The notes beneath the pieces were generated by a model, which had not been told where the DNA came from, made no database searches, and saw nothing but the letters and a program-made list of their open reading frames with translations. DNA of 64,000 nucleotides from Pseudomonadota bacterium (GTDB lineage: Bacteria; Pseudomonadota; Alphaproteobacteria; SHVZ01), in assembly GCA_016195085.1 (NCBI GenBank), contig JACQAG010000012.1, forward strand, positions 1 through 64,000. Reading direction: 5' to 3'. Position numbers and translations under genes: made by a program. Below, piece after piece: positions 49,561 through 63,710 of this stretch. Position 1 is the first letter of the stretch. Each line of letters starts with the position of its first letter.

Positions 49561-50865
49561 TCAGGCGACCGTCAGCTCGACGCCCCGGGCCTCCCAGATC
49601 TTGAGCCAGCCGCCGAAGGCGTCGGAGGCCATCGGTCGCGCGAAGTGGTAGCCCTGGGCCAGCTTGCAGTCGAATGACCGCAGCATCTCCATCGTCTCGC
49701 GGTTCTCCACCCCCTCGGCGATCACGCCGAGGCCGAGATTGTTGGCAAGGCCGATGATCGACTTGACGATAACCTGCGCCGCCTTGTCGCGGAGAATCGA
49801 GCCGACGAATGAGCGGTCGACCTTGATCAGCGAGACGGGCATGCGGTGCAGCTCGCGCAAGCTGGAATAGCCCGTGCCAAAATCGTCGAGCGCCACGTGG
49901 AAGCCCTTGATTCTGAGCCGTGTCACCTGCGAGGTGGTGAATGCGGGATCGGCCATCGCCGCCGTCTCGGTCACCTCCACGGTCACGCGCGACGGCTTCA
50001 TCCCATGGCGGAAGGCGATCTGCACGAGCTGGTCGGGAAAATGCTGATCGCCTAGGCAGGTGGGCGGTACGTTGATCGCGACCGAGGGCTCGCCGGGCAG
50101 AACCGAAATCGACCCGATCGCGAGCTGCGCGACCTGGAGCGTAAGCGGGAGAATCAGCGCGCTCTCTTCGACCAACGGAATGAACCTGTCGGGATGGATC
50201 AGCCCGCGAACCGGATGCCGCCAGCGGACCAGCGCCTCGGCTCCGACGACCCGACCGGTGGCAATCTCGACCACCGGCTGCATGTGGACGACGAGCTCGC
50301 CGCGCTCGAGCGCCTGCTTCAGCTCCGGCTCGGTTACGGCCGAATGGGTCAAAGCGTATTGGTCCAGGGCGCCTTGCAGCTCGGCGGGATCGAACGGCTT
50401 CCGCATCGGCGCCAGCATGGTGAGGCCGAGGGTACGTCCGAAGGCGACGGCGGACTGCAACACCCTCTCCTCGCAGCCGGTCAACAGCAGAATCGATGAT
50501 TCGCAGGCAATTTCACGAAGGTGACGCAGAACGCTGACGCCGTCGGTCATCCCGAGATTGAGATCCAGCACGACGACATCGGGGGCCGCGCCCTCGGTCA
50601 TGACATGAGAAAATTCATCGACGGTCTGTGTCGCGACGGTTTCGAAGCCGGAGAGCTCCGCGATCGCCGCAACGAGGTCGCAGATGAGCAACTCGTCATC
50701 GAGGACGACGAGCCGGCGCAACATGGATTGCCGGATATCGCCCGTGTCGTCCGCCTCGGCGAGAGATCCGGCGCCGAATGGAGTCGGTTGTCCCTGACAC
50801 ACAACCGCGTTCTGTGCCGTGGGGGAACCACCCTGCGCCGGCGTGAGATCGAATGCGAGGCTCAT
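49561..50865 (-). CDS. REC-EAL cyclic-di-GMP phosphodiesterase
   Basis: 434 residues. After a roughly 45-residue tail, a receiver domain (acidic pair in VVLDDELL, phospho-Asp in VVVLDLNLGMTDG, Lys in MRKPFDP) is followed by an EAL domain (about 180-425). The EAL domain keeps AEALVRWRHP, the Glu of EVTETAAM, DDFGTGYSSL, KVDRSFV and AEGVENRE, so it should hydrolyse c-di-GMP; the usual NxS position reads NVPPTCL. The receiver couples it to a kinase, possibly the chemotaxis system. Motif box A lies 55 nt upstream. GGAGAG precedes the ATG. Confidence 0.9.
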   Translation of the reverse strand: MSLAFDLTPAQGGSPTAQNAVVCQGQPTPFGAGSLAEADDTGDIRQSMLRRLVVLDDELLICDLVAAIAELSGFETVATQTVDEFSHVMTEGAAPDVVVLDLNLGMTDGVSVLRHLREIACESSILLLTGCEERVLQSAVAFGRTLGLTMLAPMRKPFDPAELQGALDQYALTHSAVTEPELKQALERGELVVHMQPVVEIATGRVVGAEALVRWRHPVRGLIHPDRFIPLVEESALILPLTLQVAQLAIGSISVLPGEPSVAINVPPTCLGDQHFPDQLVQIAFRHGMKPSRVTVEVTETAAMADPAFTTSQVTRLRIKGFHVALDDFGTGYSSLRELHRMPVSLIKVDRSFVGSILRDKAAQVIVKSIIGLANNLGLGVIAEGVENRETMEMLRSFDCKLAQGYHFARPMASDAFGGWLKIWEARGVELTVA

Positions 50866-50920: not shown

Positions 50921-50939
50921 CATCAGTCGAAAGTATGAG
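50921..50939 (-). promoter_or_regulatory. Chemotaxis-locus box A (upstream of REC-EAL gene)
   Basis: Minus-strand sequence CTCATACTTTCGACTGATG, one mismatch from the consensus CTCATACTTTYGTCTGATR shared with the other boxes in this locus. It ends 55 nt before the ATG and points toward the gene. Confidence 0.7.
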
Positions 50940-54193: not shown

Positions 54194-54212
54194 CTCATAC
54201 CTTCGTTGGATA
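54194..54212 (+). promoter_or_regulatory. Chemotaxis-locus box C (upstream of cheR)
   Basis: CTCATACCTTCGTTGGATA, three mismatches from the 19-bp consensus, 88 nt before the chosen cheR start and oriented toward it. Confidence 0.55.
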
Positions 54213-54300
54213 CCGGGCTGAGCCGCATGCCCGTAAGCTTTTTGCGGTATCCAAGTGTCGGGCCGCGACCGGCCCCAGCAATTGAATGGAGCGAGGCTTC

Positions 54301-55152
54301 ATGCAGACCGATGCGTTCCAATTCCTGGCCGGTTTGGTCAAGGATCGCTCCGGAATCGTCCTCACCCCGGACAAGGTCTATCTGCTGGAGAGCCGGCTGA
54401 TGCCGATCGCCCGCAGACTCGGGCAGGCGAGCCTCGACGACCTCGTCGCCAGGGCCCGCTCTCGTGAGGTGCCGAGTGTTCTGGACGAGATCGTCGAAGC
54501 GATGACGACCAACGAATCCCTGTTCTTTCGCGACGTGAAGCCTTTCGACCAGTTTCGGCGCGTGGCCCTGCCGAAGCTCATCGAGGCCCGCGCCGGAGCC
54601 CGGCAGCTCAAGATCTGGAGTGCGGCCTGCTCGAGCGGCCAGGAGCCCTACAGCCTGGCCATGGTTCTGGCGGAGGAAGCGAACCGATTGCAGGGCTGGA
54701 GAGTCGACGTGCTCGGCACCGATCTCTCGAAAGCCATGGTCGAGCGTGCCCGCGGCGGCGTCTATTCGCAGTTCGAGGTGCAGCGCGGCATGCCGGCACC
54801 GATGCTGGCGAAGTATTTCGTCCAAGACGGCGAGAAGTGGTCGGTTGCCTCGACGCTGCGTCCAATGACCCGGTTTCACGAGTTCAATCTCCTGGACGAT
54901 CCGGCGCCCCTCGGCCAATTCGATGTGGTGTTCTGCCGCAATGTGCTGATCTACTTCGATCAGCCGACCAAGGCGAAGATCCTGGAGCAGATCGCGCGCC
55001 GGCTGCCGATGGACGGCTTGCTGTATCTCGGCGGGTCAGAGACGGTCTTCGGCATCACCGATCAATTCGCGCCGGTTCCCGGCGAGCGCGGCGTTTACTG
55101 CCTCACCCGTCAAGCCCTCTCCGTCGCCACGCCGATCCGCGCCGCGGCGTAA
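54301..55152 (+). CDS. cheR: Chemotaxis protein methyltransferase CheR
   Basis: 283 residues. An N-terminal helical CheR_N domain (LTPDKVYLLESRLMPIAR), then the methyltransferase domain with IWSAACSSGQEPYSLAM near residue 105 and VVFCRNVLIYFD near residue 210. It methylates receptor glutamates using SAM. The ATG at 54301 follows GGAGCGAGG; another ATG lies five codons upstream. No C-terminal pentapeptide-binding extension is seen. Confidence 0.95.
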   Translation: MQTDAFQFLAGLVKDRSGIVLTPDKVYLLESRLMPIARRLGQASLDDLVARARSREVPSVLDEIVEAMTTNESLFFRDVKPFDQFRRVALPKLIEARAGARQLKIWSAACSSGQEPYSLAMVLAEEANRLQGWRVDVLGTDLSKAMVERARGGVYSQFEVQRGMPAPMLAKYFVQDGEKWSVASTLRPMTRFHEFNLLDDPAPLGQFDVVFCRNVLIYFDQPTKAKILEQIARRLPMDGLLYLGGSETVFGITDQFAPVPGERGVYCLTRQALSVATPIRAAA

Positions 55153-55202: not shown

Positions 55203-55221
55203 CTCATACTTTTGTCTGATG
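55203..55221 (+). promoter_or_regulatory. Chemotaxis-locus box D (upstream of cheY)
   Basis: CTCATACTTTTGTCTGATG, an exact match to the consensus, in the cheR-cheY gap and 85 nt before the cheY ATG. Its presence between two same-strand che genes suggests cheY has its own promoter. Confidence 0.75.
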
Positions 55222-55306: not shown

Positions 55307-55696
55307 ATGACAGTCAGCAAGGAAATGGAAGTCCTGGTCGTCGACGACTATGCGACCATGCGCCGTATCATCAAGAATCTCTTGAACCAGCTCGGCTTCA
55401 AGAATGTGAGCGAGGCAGAAGACGGCGCCGCCGCCTTGGGCAAGCTCCGGGCGAAGCCCGCCGGCCTGGTGATCAGCGACTGGAACATGGAGCCGATGAC
55501 GGGCCTCCAGCTCCTGAAGGAAGTGCGCGCCGACGGCAAGCTGAACGGCGTCCCCTTCATCATGGTGACGGCCGAGAGCAAGACCGAGAACGTGGTCGCC
55601 GCCAAGCAAGCGGGCGTCAACAACTACATCGTCAAGCCCTTCAACGCAGAGACGCTGAAGCAGAAGATGCAGTCAGTGATCGGCGCCTTCGACTGA
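55307..55696 (+). CDS. cheY: Chemotaxis response regulator CheY
   Basis: 129 residues. Acidic pair in LVVDDYATMRRI, phospho-Asp in VISDWNMEPMTG, Thr in FIMVTAESKTENV and Lys in YIVKPFNAETL are all in place, with the DWNM signature typical of true CheY. Phospho-CheY binds the flagellar switch. GGAG lies nine bases before the ATG. Confidence 0.95.
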   Translation: MTVSKEMEVLVVDDYATMRRIIKNLLNQLGFKNVSEAEDGAAALGKLRAKPAGLVISDWNMEPMTGLQLLKEVRADGKLNGVPFIMVTAESKTENVVAAKQAGVNNYIVKPFNAETLKQKMQSVIGAFD

Positions 55697-58839: not shown

Positions 58840-61080
58840 CTACTCGGCCGCCATGCGAAATGCCTGGCTCTCCTCCGGCATGGCGGAGAGCGGCAGGGAA
58901 TCCGCAAAGGCGCGGCTCACGAAGTGCTCAACGTCGATGATCTCGGTCGCCTTACCGGCGATGACCGCGGTTCCGAGCATGCCCAGCCGCTTCGAGGCGA
59001 GCTTGATGTCGAGCGGGGTCTCGACGATGTCGAGGATCTTCTGCACCACCAGGCCCATCGTGCGTTTCTGGTCGCCGAAGACCAGTACGGACAGGTTCCC
59101 GGAGGTCGGGATCTGATCGCGCGGATCGATCGTCGTGAGCGGCATGAGCTCGTCGCGGTACTGCACCACAGGCGCGCCGTCCACGATCTCCACGCGGCTC
59201 GACTCGAGCTCTTCCAGCCGGGCGACCGAGCCGAGCGGCACCGCCTTGGGGGCGGGGTCGGACTCGGTCTGGAACAGGATGAGCTGGGCGATGGTCCTGC
59301 CGGAGCTCACTTGTGCTGCCTTCGAGTCGCGAACCTCCTCCTCGCTGGTGGTGCCGCCGATCGTGGAGGCGAGCCCATTGGGGTCGAGAATCATAATGAC
59401 GCTGCCATCGCCGAGAATGGTGTTGCCGGCGTAAACGGTGAGGGCGCGCAGGATCGGCGCAACCGGCTTCACCACGATCTCCTCGGTGTCGTAGACGCGG
59501 TCGACGACGATGCCGAAGCATTGGCTGCCGACTTGGGTTACGACGATGAAGCCGCCTTCCAGCTTCGACTCGTCCTTCAGCCCGAGCACGCGGCCGAGAT
59601 CGACGAGCGGCAGCAAGCGGTTGCGCAAGCGGAACACCGCAGCCCCGTGCAGATGCTCGATCTGTTCCGGCTTGGCACGAACCAGCGCGGAGACGGCGAT
59701 CTGCGGAATGGCGAAGCGCTGGCCGGACGCGGCCACGATCAGCGCCGCGACGATCGCCAAGGTGAGCGGGATCTTGATCGAAAACGCAGTTCCCTTGCCT
59801 TCCTCGGAAGCGAGCTCGATGGTGCCGCCGATGCGCTCGATGTTAGTGCGCACGACGTCCATGCCGACGCCGCGGCCGGAGACCGCCGTCACCTTCTCCG
59901 CGGTGGAGAATCCCGCCTTGAAGATGAAGGACTGGATCTGCTGGGGGGTCATCTGGGTTGCGGCGGCCTCGGTCACCAGGCCATTCTGGATCGCCTTGCG
60001 ACGAATCTTCTCGACCGGCAGGCCGCGTCCGTCATCCTTGACTTCGATAATGATGTGGCCGCCGCGGTGAAAGGCGTTGAGCGTGATGGTTCCGGTCTCC
60101 GGCTTGCCGGCCGCGAGGCGGTCTTCCGGGCGCTCGAGGCCGTGGTCGGCCGAATTGCGGACCATGTGGGTCAGCGGATCGCGGATCAGCTCCAAGACCT
60201 GGCGGTCGAGCTCGGTCTCGGCGCCGTTCATCTGCAGGTCGATCTTCTTGCCGACATCGACCGTGAGGTCGCGCACCAGGCGCGGCAGCTTGCTCCAGGC
60301 ATTGCCGATCGGCTGCATGCGGGTCTTCATGATCCCCTCCTGCAGCTCCGAGGTGATCTTCGAGAGGTGCTGGAGAGGCACCTGGATGGCCGGGATGTCC
60401 TGGCTGCGCAACGCCTGCAGCAGCTGGTTGCGAGTCAGCACCAGCTCGCTGACGGTGGTCATCAAGCCTTCCAGCAGCTCGACTGCGACCCGGATGGATT
60501 GATTGGCGACCGCGCTCTCGCGCACGCTCGAGGTCTCGCTGCCGGCGGCTTTGCTGTTCGGCTCGACGGGCTCGGGCTTGGTGGCCGCGTTCGGCGGTGC
60601 GGCGGGCGTCGGATCGGAAACGGGCTCGGCCTCGGCTTCGGCTCCTGCGGCGGGCGCCTCGGCCGACGGAGTCGCGACGGCGGCGGTCTCCGCCGGGGTC
60701 TCGCCCTTGTAGATCGCGTCCAGCCGGGCGATGAGGGCGGCATCGTCGCCCTGCGGCTCGACGCCGTCAGCCTGCTCGATGGCCGCCAAGATGCCTTTGA
60801 TGCGATCCAAGGATTCGAGCACGACGCCGATCGAGGCCGGAGCAGCCGTGAGACTGCCCTCGCGGAAGCGTCCCAGCACGTTCTCGCCCGCATGGGCGAG
60901 CTTCTCCAGCCGTGGCAGGCCTAGAAAGCCGCACGTTCCCTTGATCGTATGCACCAGCCGGAAGATTCGGCCGATGAGATCCGCGTTGCCGGGATCCTGC
61001 TCGAGGGCGACGAGGTCGTTGTCGACCTGCACCATGCTCTCGGCGGTCTCCGTCAAAAATTCCCGGATCAAGTCGTCCAT
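58840..61080 (-). CDS. cheA: Chemotaxis histidine kinase CheA with tandem CheW-like domains
   Basis: 746 residues. An N-terminal P1 Hpt domain carries the phospho-His in RLVHTIKGTCGFLGLP near residue 44. An Ala/Pro/Glu-rich linker (about 125-185) stands where P2 would be. Next come the dimerisation helices, the HATPase with MVRNSADHGLERPEDR, DDGRGLPVEKIR and GRGVGMDVV, then two successive CheW-like regions (about 440-575 and 590-735). A second CheW-like domain is unusual for textbook CheA. GAGGGAGC precedes the ATG. Confidence 0.94.
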   Translation of the reverse strand: MDDLIREFLTETAESMVQVDNDLVALEQDPGNADLIGRIFRLVHTIKGTCGFLGLPRLEKLAHAGENVLGRFREGSLTAAPASIGVVLESLDRIKGILAAIEQADGVEPQGDDAALIARLDAIYKGETPAETAAVATPSAEAPAAGAEAEAEPVSDPTPAAPPNAATKPEPVEPNSKAAGSETSSVRESAVANQSIRVAVELLEGLMTTVSELVLTRNQLLQALRSQDIPAIQVPLQHLSKITSELQEGIMKTRMQPIGNAWSKLPRLVRDLTVDVGKKIDLQMNGAETELDRQVLELIRDPLTHMVRNSADHGLERPEDRLAAGKPETGTITLNAFHRGGHIIIEVKDDGRGLPVEKIRRKAIQNGLVTEAAATQMTPQQIQSFIFKAGFSTAEKVTAVSGRGVGMDVVRTNIERIGGTIELASEEGKGTAFSIKIPLTLAIVAALIVAASGQRFAIPQIAVSALVRAKPEQIEHLHGAAVFRLRNRLLPLVDLGRVLGLKDESKLEGGFIVVTQVGSQCFGIVVDRVYDTEEIVVKPVAPILRALTVYAGNTILGDGSVIMILDPNGLASTIGGTTSEEEVRDSKAAQVSSGRTIAQLILFQTESDPAPKAVPLGSVARLEELESSRVEIVDGAPVVQYRDELMPLTTIDPRDQIPTSGNLSVLVFGDQKRTMGLVVQKILDIVETPLDIKLASKRLGMLGTAVIAGKATEIIDVEHFVSRAFADSLPLSAMPEESQAFRMAAE

Positions 61081-61155: not shown

Positions 61156-61174
61156 TATCAGACGAAAGTATGAG
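61156..61174 (-). promoter_or_regulatory. Chemotaxis-locus box E (upstream of cheA)
   Basis: Minus-strand CTCATACTTTCGTCTGATA, an exact match to the consensus, 75 nt before the cheA ATG and oriented toward it. Confidence 0.75.
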
Positions 61175-61203: not shown

Positions 61204-61560
61204 TCAGATCGCATTCGCGATGACGTGGAGGTCGTCGGGGTCGAGCGCATTGCCGTCCTGGTCGATCGGGCAGGGATCACCCCCAACCATCGCTTTTACG
61301 ACCACCCTGGCGGCCAGCTCCCAAGGTAGATTCTTGATCTCCTCGATCATCTCGTCCCGCCCGCGGTAGAACATGTAGTGGTCGGGCTCGCGCTCGGAGC
61401 CGGTCTCGGCCGATCGGGGGGCATAGAGCCATGCCTCGTAGCATTCGACCTCTCCGAGCAGGCCCCAGGCGAGGCGATGGACCCCGGCCGATCGGGGCAT
61501 CTCCGCCTCGATACCGCGATCTTCGGACCCGCCGGCAAGGCGGGGCGGGGAGATGGTCAT
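61204..61560 (-). CDS. Hypothetical protein upstream of cheA
   Basis: 118 residues, family not recognised. The C-terminal two thirds look like a compact acidic alpha/beta protein (DHYMFYRGRDEMIEEIKNLP, VKAMVGGDPCPIDQDGNALD). A strong AAGGAG lies about seven bases before the ATG, which supports a real gene. It is oriented like cheA, but box E lies between them. Confidence 0.7.
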   Translation of the reverse strand: MTISPPRLAGGSEDRGIEAEMPRSAGVHRLAWGLLGEVECYEAWLYAPRSAETGSEREPDHYMFYRGRDEMIEEIKNLPWELAARVVVKAMVGGDPCPIDQDGNALDPDDLHVIANAI

Positions 61561-61696
61561 TCGAAATCTCCTTAAGAGCCGTTTCCTCGCACCCTCCGAG
61601 TGAAACGGGCCCGATCTCGCAGGGAGCCTACCGGGGTCGCGATCGTCTCGGTATCAGCCGAAAGGTGGAGGGAGTGCGGGAGCGTCTGCCCGGAGG

Positions 61697-61715
61697 CTCA
61701 TACTTTTGTCTGATG
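61697..61715 (+). promoter_or_regulatory. Chemotaxis-locus box F (upstream of unknown gene at 61776)
   Basis: CTCATACTTTTGTCTGATG, identical to box D before cheY, 60 nt before the ATG of the next gene and oriented toward it. Confidence 0.75.
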
Positions 61716-61775
61716 GTCCGGCATTGCCCGTCCGCATAGGGTCCGGCTTGTGACACAAGTCACCGGGGATGACCC

Positions 61776-62780
61776 ATGGACACATTGCTAGACGCCGACA
61801 GCCTGGATGCGAGCCCGCTCGCCGAGATACCGGCGCCCAAGGAAGCAAAGCAGCCCACCGAGTTCACCTTTCGTCATCCCGTATTCGCGATCAAGGGCTC
61901 GTATTTCAGGCTGGCCCGCGACGACTCGACCCCCGTCTATTACGTAAATCTCGGCGACATGCAGGCCGCCATTCCCATCGCGCGGTTGACAGGGTCCTTC
62001 GACATTGCGGAGGGCAGCCCGGACATCGAGCTGCTGGCGATTGTCGAGAAGGGGCTGCGGTTCGTCCGCGAGATCCGTCCGGGCGACACGGTGCCCTCCG
62101 AGCTGCTGGACGGCTCGGCGTCGTGGACCGTGACCAGTCGACACCTCGAAGCCTCGCAGGCGCGGTTCTCGATGCAGCTTGTCTCCTGGCTCAACGGCAA
62201 GCAGCTCGACACCCTGGACGGGCACGCCTTCGCCGACATGCTCGAAGACCCCGAAGTCAAGGCAAAGGTGCAGCACGCGTTCGGCGCGATCGCGCAGAAG
62301 CTCGGTCTCGATTCGGATCGCAGGCAGGAGGTCGTGGACAAGATCGACCAGCTCGTCCGCGAGTTCTCCTATATCGAGGCCTTGCGCAGCCGTTCGTTCA
62401 AAGTGAAGCGGATCTCCTCGAATCTGCGTTCCCTCGGCGCCACCTACAAGCGGGAGCGGTCGATCTACGAGGAAATCGGCCGCGCGCAATCTTTGATCGG
62501 GATTCCCGTCAGCAAGCTCGGTTCCCTCTTCGACCAGATCGACGCCAACACCGGCGAAATCCTTTCCTTGCTGCGCAAGCATGAGGAGACGATCGAATAC
62601 ATTCGCCGCATGCGCGACGACCTGCATCAGCAATTGATGCGCTGGGACGAGCTGATCGCCGCCTGGGATGAGGTAACCATCGAGCGCAGCGCCGACAACG
62701 AGCGGCGAATCCGCCAGACCTACCGCTTCGTCGCCCGCTACTTCCCGCAGACCTCCGATTGGTCTCTCTCCATACGCTGA
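61776..62780 (+). CDS. Uncharacterised protein of the chemotaxis regulon
   Basis: 334 residues, family not recognised. The N-terminal 130 residues look strand-rich (FTFRHPVFAIKGSYFRLARD, VYYVNLGDMQAAIPIARL). The remainder is long charged helices with coiled-coil character (about 165-330), such as KLGSLFDQIDANTGEILSLL and RKHEETIEYIRRMRDDLHQQ. No signal peptide or membrane helix is seen. Box F, identical to the cheY box, lies upstream and a PilZ gene follows 18 nt downstream, so I infer a role in motility or c-di-GMP signalling. Confidence 0.8.
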   Translation: MDTLLDADSLDASPLAEIPAPKEAKQPTEFTFRHPVFAIKGSYFRLARDDSTPVYYVNLGDMQAAIPIARLTGSFDIAEGSPDIELLAIVEKGLRFVREIRPGDTVPSELLDGSASWTVTSRHLEASQARFSMQLVSWLNGKQLDTLDGHAFADMLEDPEVKAKVQHAFGAIAQKLGLDSDRRQEVVDKIDQLVREFSYIEALRSRSFKVKRISSNLRSLGATYKRERSIYEEIGRAQSLIGIPVSKLGSLFDQIDANTGEILSLLRKHEETIEYIRRMRDDLHQQLMRWDELIAAWDEVTIERSADNERRIRQTYRFVARYFPQTSDWSLSIR

Positions 62781-62798
62781 CGGGATCGTCGGGAGATC

Positions 62799-63182
62799 AT
62801 GATGTTGACAGCCGTAAAAGAGTTTTTTTACGCCAAAGACCCGGCGCCACCAGACCGACGGTCCGCGGAGATGCGCCAAGCGCCGCGCGTGCCGACGCCT
62901 CCCCAGTGCGTCGTCAAGATCGACAGCAAGATCTATCCGTTGCGCAACTGGAGCACGCTCGGGTTCCTGGCCGGATCCTATGAGGGCGATCTCATCGTCA
63001 AGCAGCGCATCAAGCTTGCCATCGCCGTCCGCCAGGACCATTTCAACATTGCCTTCGACGCCGAAGCGGTCGTCGTCAGGATCGAAGGCGGAGAAATCGC
63101 CGGCCGCTTCATCTTTCTGCAGCCGGAGAAGCGACGGGAGATCGAAGCCTACTTCGTCCATTATGCTCGAGGCGGGCCGTAG
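62799..63182 (+). CDS. PilZ-domain c-di-GMP-binding protein
   Basis: 127 residues. RQAPR (residues 25-29) fits the RxxxR motif, and NWSTLG about 25 residues later fits [D/N]xSxxG; together they are the c-di-GMP binding signature of PilZ domains. The following strands (LIVKQRIKLAIAVRQDHFNI, GRFIFLQPEKRREIEAYF) fit the barrel and terminal helix. Only one domain is present, so it should act by binding a partner, perhaps the product of the gene 18 nt upstream. Confidence 0.8.
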   Translation: MMLTAVKEFFYAKDPAPPDRRSAEMRQAPRVPTPPQCVVKIDSKIYPLRNWSTLGFLAGSYEGDLIVKQRIKLAIAVRQDHFNIAFDAEAVVVRIEGGEIAGRFIFLQPEKRREIEAYFVHYARGGP

Positions 63183-63338
63183 TGGGGCCACCGAGCGGAG
63201 ACCGGGCTCGAACGGCGCTGCCTTGCTCCTCGCGCAACGAAATTACGTGGGGGCGCCTTTGTGCAGACGCCTTCGCCAGGCTGGTATAAGCTAGCGTCGT
63301 CGCCGTTTGCACGCAGACCCCTGATCCAGAAGCGATCG

Positions 63339-63710
63339 ATGACCGTGCCGACCGTGAACAATACAACTGCATCGGTTCCGCTGGCGCCGTCGCCTTCGCG
63401 GTCGGCCGAGCCTGCGGACGGTGCCGCCGCAGCCGGTCAGCGCCCCAAGCTGCGCCCGGAGCAGGAAATTCGCGCAAGCGACGTCATCGCCCGCTTCACC
63501 AATGGCTATATCGACGAGCGGAAGGCAATCGAGCATCTGACGGCAATCGGCCTCAGCGCCAACGAGGCGGCGGCTCGGCTGCAGCACGCTGTGCCCCACA
63601 GCAAGCCCAGCACGGGCGAGATTGGCGAAGTGCCGTTGCCGAAGGACGCAAGCCCCACGCCTCGCCTTTCCGTCGATGCGCTGCTGACCGCACAAAACGC
63701 CCGTGGCTGA
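63339..63710 (+). CDS. Hypothetical protein downstream of the PilZ gene
   Basis: 123 residues from an ATG; the frame is open upstream to 63261. The ends are Pro/Ser/Ala-rich and probably disordered; the middle (SDVIARFTNGYIDERKAIEH, LTAIGLSANEAAARLQ) predicts a short helical hairpin like those in small adaptor proteins. Family not recognised. Confidence 0.5.
   Translation: MTVPTVNNTTASVPLAPSPSRSAEPADGAAAAGQRPKLRPEQEIRASDVIARFTNGYIDERKAIEHLTAIGLSANEAAARLQHAVPHSKPSTGEIGEVPLPKDASPTPRLSVDALLTAQNARG

Follow-up and report, generated by a model that had tools for sequence, protein, structure and literature searches.

A PilZ gene and an unnamed alphaproteobacterial protein family beside chemotaxis genes: a candidate link between c-di-GMP and the chemotaxis relay

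Chemotaxis is one of the best understood bacterial signalling systems. To our knowledge, links from c-di-GMP to chemotaxis have been worked out in a few species only. In Pseudomonas aeruginosa, MapZ is a PilZ adaptor that inhibits CheR1 (PMC6370697). The phosphodiesterase Pch is coupled to CheA in a complex at the pole (PMC3861689), while Tlp1 (PMC6406031) and Cbp1 (PMC6454048) are chemoreceptors with a PilZ domain of their own. MotL, finally, is a stand-alone PilZ regulator of the flagellar motor (PMC8203827).

The window, i.e. the whole stretch of 64,000 nucleotides analysed here, carries several che genes and, near its end, a gene of an unnamed family. The product of this gene (61776) is labelled X below; P0002 denotes the PilZ protein starting at 62799, and P0003 the ORF starting at 63339. 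The genes considered are as follows.

49561..50865, minus strand: REC-EAL gene, product a putative c-di-GMP phosphodiesterase (motifs EAL and DDFG)
54286..55152: cheR, with a box upstream
55307..55696, plus strand: cheY
58840..61080, minus strand: cheA, with orthologues divergently adjacent to X in two relatives
61204..61560, minus strand: protein of 118 aa, its gene lying between cheA and X and divergent from the latter
61776..62780, plus strand: X, 334 aa, unnamed alphaproteobacterial family
62799..63182, plus strand: single-domain PilZ protein (P0002), 127 aa, RQAPR and NWSTLG motifs
63339..63710, plus strand: possible ORF of 123 aa (P0003), judged to lie outside the X/PilZ set

Compared with the described systems, the locus resembles that of MapZ in having a single-domain PilZ protein which would carry c-di-GMP into the chemotaxis pathway. 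MapZ acts on CheR1 directly, however, whereas the PilZ gene of the window is paired with X, and we know of no X-like partner of MapZ. As with Tlp1 and Cbp1, a c-di-GMP input into alphaproteobacterial chemotaxis would be involved, but their PilZ domain lies inside the receptor and P0002 is a separate protein paired with X. The REC-EAL gene recalls Pch as a c-di-GMP phosphodiesterase in a chemotaxis system; Pch forms its complex with CheA at the pole, whereas REC-EAL is linked here by a common box alone. Members of the MotL/YcgR group are likewise PilZ proteins linked to motility, but their target is the flagellar motor, in contrast to the linkage with che genes and an additional helical protein found here.

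The original prediction described the genes at 61776 and 62799 as a compact same-strand pair, and this was borne out. Both ORFs were located, 18 bp apart on the same strand, and GC content by codon position was of the coding type for X (0.61/0.41/0.84) and for the PilZ gene (0.62/0.41/0.77). The two genes are presumably carried on one transcript. A scan of positions 61560-63400 for consensus promoters and terminators found nothing. P0003, which had been included with reservation, was left out of the set because it has no box, follows after a gap of 156 bp, and no relative of it occurs in the remaining six genomes of the family. The divergent 118-aa protein had no match in a Pfam search.

About 130 members of the X family were examined. 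Members occurred in 51 of the 385 alphaproteobacterial genomes sampled and in 7 of 399 genomes of a phylum sample, where the family was confined to the Alphaproteobacteria and no member was found outside this class; none was found on viral contigs. The window protein, itself a row of A1, matched the A1 family profile over its full length (440.9 bits). Searches of Pfam and NCBIfam, covering 44 members, and of the PDB gave no match above cut-off and returned coiled-coil noise only, in agreement with the earlier view of X as an uncharacterised protein. In an alignment of 44 members P107, L240, W290 and Y316 were invariant, and D83, D104, E109, H123, E196, E201, R204, D256, R277, R280 and D281 nearly so. 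The N-terminal part carries the signature D..LL..V...L..V..IRPGDSIP.E.LDG.ASW, and D256, R277, R280, D281 and W290 lie in long C-terminal helices.

AF2 gave a poor model of X from one sequence. The model from two sequences (pTM 0.57, mean pLDDT 58) had confident long helices from about residue 190 to 322; its N-terminal third, including the first 100 residues, was unreliable. The arrangement foreseen for X, strands followed by long helices, agrees with this low-confidence model, for which Foldseek (mean pLDDT of the query 58) found no match at E<=0.001. CheZ (PF04344) is also a helical protein and its gene recurrently adjoins X, but X shows no similarity to the CheZ profile (hhalign probability 0.45%, no Pfam CheZ match), and the X loci of families f107 and f102 have a separate cheZ. 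A relationship of X to PilZ was rejected by profile comparison. Since there is neither CheZ or PilZ homology nor a fold match, the activity of X is not readable from its sequence.

P0002 contains the motifs RQAPR (26-30) and NWSTLG (50-55), which fit the c-di-GMP motifs RxxxR and [D/N]xSxxG, as had been predicted. Its match to Pfam PilZ (PF07238; E=0.0015) covered nearly the full model, at a score of 19.3 bits that lies below the gathering score of 22.5 bits. A profile built from its relatives matched PilZ domain structures of Alg44 in the PDB (E=0.0013). P0002 is a probable c-di-GMP sensor.

The box that connects X to the che genes has the genome-wide form CATACTTTNGTCTGAT, often with a -10-like TA 22 nt downstream. 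The following sites were found in the window.

50922..50937, minus strand: box upstream of REC-EAL, 1 mismatch, TA at the usual spacing absent
54196..54211, plus strand: box upstream of cheR, 3 mismatches, 22-nt spacing to TA
55205..55220, plus strand: box upstream of cheY, same letters as the X box
61157..61172, minus strand: box upstream of cheA, without the exact 22-nt TA spacing
61653..61668, minus strand: box-like site before the divergent gene for the 118-aa protein, with 4 mismatches and TAGGCT 22 nt on
61699..61714, plus strand: box upstream of X, CATACTTTTGTCTGAT, with the -10-like TAGGGT (61737) 22 nt on

Allowing 3 mismatches, the window has five sites, against 0.09 expected from shuffles. 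The X box CTCATACTTTTGTCTGA (61697-61713) equals that of cheY (55203-55219) in 17 of 17 bases, which confirms the identity originally noted. The REC-EAL gene had also been placed under the box; its site is present, and its product contains an EAL domain (Pfam, E=1.5e-69) with EAL at residue 210 and DDFG at 327. Across several contigs the box marks a chemotaxis regulon of cheY, cheA, cheR, REC-EAL, cheZ and MCP genes, the CheZ and MCP identities having been checked with Pfam. TA(G/A) follows 22 nt on at X, cheY, cheR, two sites before an MCP gene (C22), C12:74965 and C23:13756, and the exact TA spacing is absent before cheA, REC-EAL, the CheZ gene (C12:74461) and an MCP gene on C3.

In 4 of the 7 genomes of the family, the box pattern with a spacing of 20-24 nt was found at 12 sites, and the reversed control pattern at 0. 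Among the relatives, boxes precede cheY (G001, G004, G005), cheR (G005), and also cheA and X; the X gene of G001 has a box with 3 mismatches and TAGGGT at 22 nt. These sites, together with those of the window genome, tie X to a che regulon that includes the REC-EAL gene. Further box sites in the relatives precede non-che genes, and usage of the box seems to extend past chemotaxis. In G005 (contig C8), three near-identical boxes stand in a row next to an MCP-like gene (L137:3429, 4586, 6145), ahead of genes for a substrate-binding-type protein, a cytochrome b561-like protein and a third gene.

If the TA belongs to a -10 element, the box would be centred near -42, which is the position of class II activators. 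A LuxR-type response regulator is encoded within the cheZ cluster of both the window genome (C12:76075-76770) and G005, and is a candidate for binding the box. In these clusters (L024:13380-16771 on contig C12; L138:3-2301), two adjacent CheZ-type genes are followed by the LuxR-type gene, an arrangement kept in G005.

Neighbourhoods were compared for 129 X genes, counting cheA/B/R/W/Z within 300 bp as che neighbours. Such a neighbour (cheA, cheB or cheZ) was found for 16 of the 129, compared with 11 of 2028 control ORFs from the same loci, every one of which was traced to a che gene that itself lies within about 300 bp of X. A looser state, with CheY-like genes included and a distance of 1.2 kb, changed 11 times on the X tree. 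In the window, cheA lies 696 bp from X with one small gene between, and in two relatives of the same family, G001 (X 58% identical) and G005, X and cheA are divergent neighbours. At 13 loci of family f107 X stands divergent from a CheZ gene, and the CheZ neighbours of X were confirmed by Pfam. Family f102 is more varied: X lies 18 bp after cheZ (L186), adjoins a cheZ-cheY-cheA cluster (L187), cheB (L188) or a CheY-like gene (L189), or has a complete che cluster at a distance of one kilobase and an MCP gene on its other side (L092). X thus recurrently adjoins che genes, in three taxonomic families. A role limited to chemotaxis was not supported, however, as the majority of X copies are away from che, being solitary and in housekeeping or metabolic neighbourhoods, e.g. 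in Azospirillum, whose plasmid copies have no che neighbours.

Two of the cheA-linked loci were unusual. In G001, the cheA gene next to X runs in frame into an EAL domain (L057:10187-12379; Hpt, kinase, partial CheW, EAL). This may be a genuine fusion of CheA with a phosphodiesterase, or the stretch between cheA and REC-EAL may have been lost in assembly. In G005, the X next to cheA (L062:9102-9914) is without residues ~140-230, and is possibly a decaying copy.

A small single-domain PilZ gene directly follows X on the same strand at 8 of the 129 X genes, in four families. Apart from the window (f1), these are f45 (L077, gap of 13 bp, CheY-like gene nearby), f128 (L086, L239 with two, L256 and L267; overlaps of 4-19 bp by called start) and f102 (L199, overlap of 1 bp). 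The short overlaps suggest translational coupling. Among 1741 control ORFs there were 16 motif matches, of which one was on reading a plausible PilZ protein (L066). The X-linked PilZ sequences diverge strongly from family to family, and three of the four types fall under the Pfam gathering cut-off; L199 scored above it (38.8 bits), while those of the window, L077 and L256 have PilZ as their best match and contain both motifs. PilZ linkage changed 4 times on the X tree, in which the PilZ-linked X of L077 and L199 have long, uncertain branches. Because counts within one family are non-independent and two of the X sequences are on such branches, the safe claim is recurrence in four families. This recurrence could reflect repeated gain, or an old pair that was often lost.

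The suggestion that P0002 is the partner of X gains independent support from this gene order (8/129 against 1/1741 in the control). As to whether the pair is kept next to che genes, X was found beside che in three families and X-PilZ in four, but a fixed X-PilZ-cheA block is not conserved, since the two nearest relatives with a cheA-linked X have no PilZ gene there. A literature search found no published account of X-PilZ pairing. On contig C15 (L133:6672-7988) there are three tandem PilZ-type matches, the third of which is 63% identical to P0002 and a possible source of the X-adjacent PilZ gene.

The original interpretation as a whole is thus partly supported. With a probability of roughly 0.45, we read X as a cytoplasmic adaptor of an undescribed family which couples PilZ and c-di-GMP to the CheA-CheY-CheZ relay. 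Through its N-terminal module and its long C-terminal helices, X would bring P0002, a stand-alone PilZ protein expressed from one transcript with it, to the phosphorelay of CheA, CheY and CheZ. REC-EAL, which would lower c-di-GMP, or other enzymes would shift the level of the nucleotide; P0002 would bind it, change its state and, in complex with X, alter CheY phosphorylation or its read-out in one direction or the other. In this way c-di-GMP would tune turning and swimming, and X would be a motility effector, as had been proposed. This reading is based on the identical box, the che regulon, the linkages of X to che and PilZ genes, and the precedents of MapZ-CheR1 and Pch; it is weakened by the solitary position of most X genes, by the closest cheA-linked X being without PilZ, and by the lack of a fold match. 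Put more broadly, and held as a tentative view short of even odds, X would be an undescribed alphaproteobacterial chemotaxis component that passes a PilZ/c-di-GMP signal (elsewhere one from a pentapeptide-repeat partner) to the CheA-CheY-CheZ relay, with a single uncharacterised regulon box shared by che and X. What is new is an unnamed protein family within a known kind of process. The family provides a concrete candidate for a link between c-di-GMP and chemotaxis and may thereby join the two signals on which the choice between swimming and settling depends, and the box yields a predicted chemotaxis regulon with the LuxR-type response regulator as candidate regulator.

The recurrent neighbours of X are not restricted to che and PilZ genes. 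A gene for a pentapeptide-repeat protein lies within 1.2 kb of 21 of the 129 X genes; in f107 and f128 these proteins (435-505 aa) are encoded downstream of X on the same strand, and in f52 at most 1.1 kb away on the opposite strand. This spread, the occurrence of several X copies in each genome from G133's order, the CheY-like or hybrid-kinase genes next to X in one family and the many solitary copies would fit X as a general signalling or polar scaffold for many phosphorelays, with che proteins, PilZ, CheY-like regulators and pentapeptide-repeat proteins as clients. We consider such a scaffold unlikely, though worth keeping in mind, as the sharp enrichments measured apart from pentapeptide proteins were those for PilZ and core che genes, and the box in the window links X to che specifically.

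An action of X and PilZ as a c-di-GMP brake or clutch on the flagellar motor, rather than on the Che relay, appears improbable. YcgR, on which such a mechanism could be modelled, has an extra N-terminal domain, which the 127-aa P0002 is without, and the neighbours of X are cheA, cheZ, cheB and cheY, not motor genes. Stand-alone PilZ regulators of the motor do exist (MotL, PMC8203827), and the X/PilZ pair is co-regulated with che genes. It would be more surprising still if X and PilZ were merely co-expressed with chemotaxis and acted on a different output of c-di-GMP in swimming cells, e.g. surface polysaccharide. Genomes carry several P0002-like paralogues, which lie in unrelated contexts, and the closest PDB match to the profile of this group is Alg44, a PilZ protein of polysaccharide synthesis; against this, X is repeatedly linked to che in lineages that were found without use of the box.

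The pentapeptide-repeat proteins encoded after X at L240:8177-9508, L242:8070-9401, L166:6320-7750 and L171:9093-10514 (443-505 aa) were found in the genomes of two families, in one of which the gene is followed by that for a single-domain CheY-like regulator. A second unnamed family, a sister set of proteins of around 320 aa (~313-344 aa; L183, L200, L269-L272, L276), resembles X in the N-terminal module alone, with the signature G..iPsEl.DG.pSW, and has a different C-terminus.
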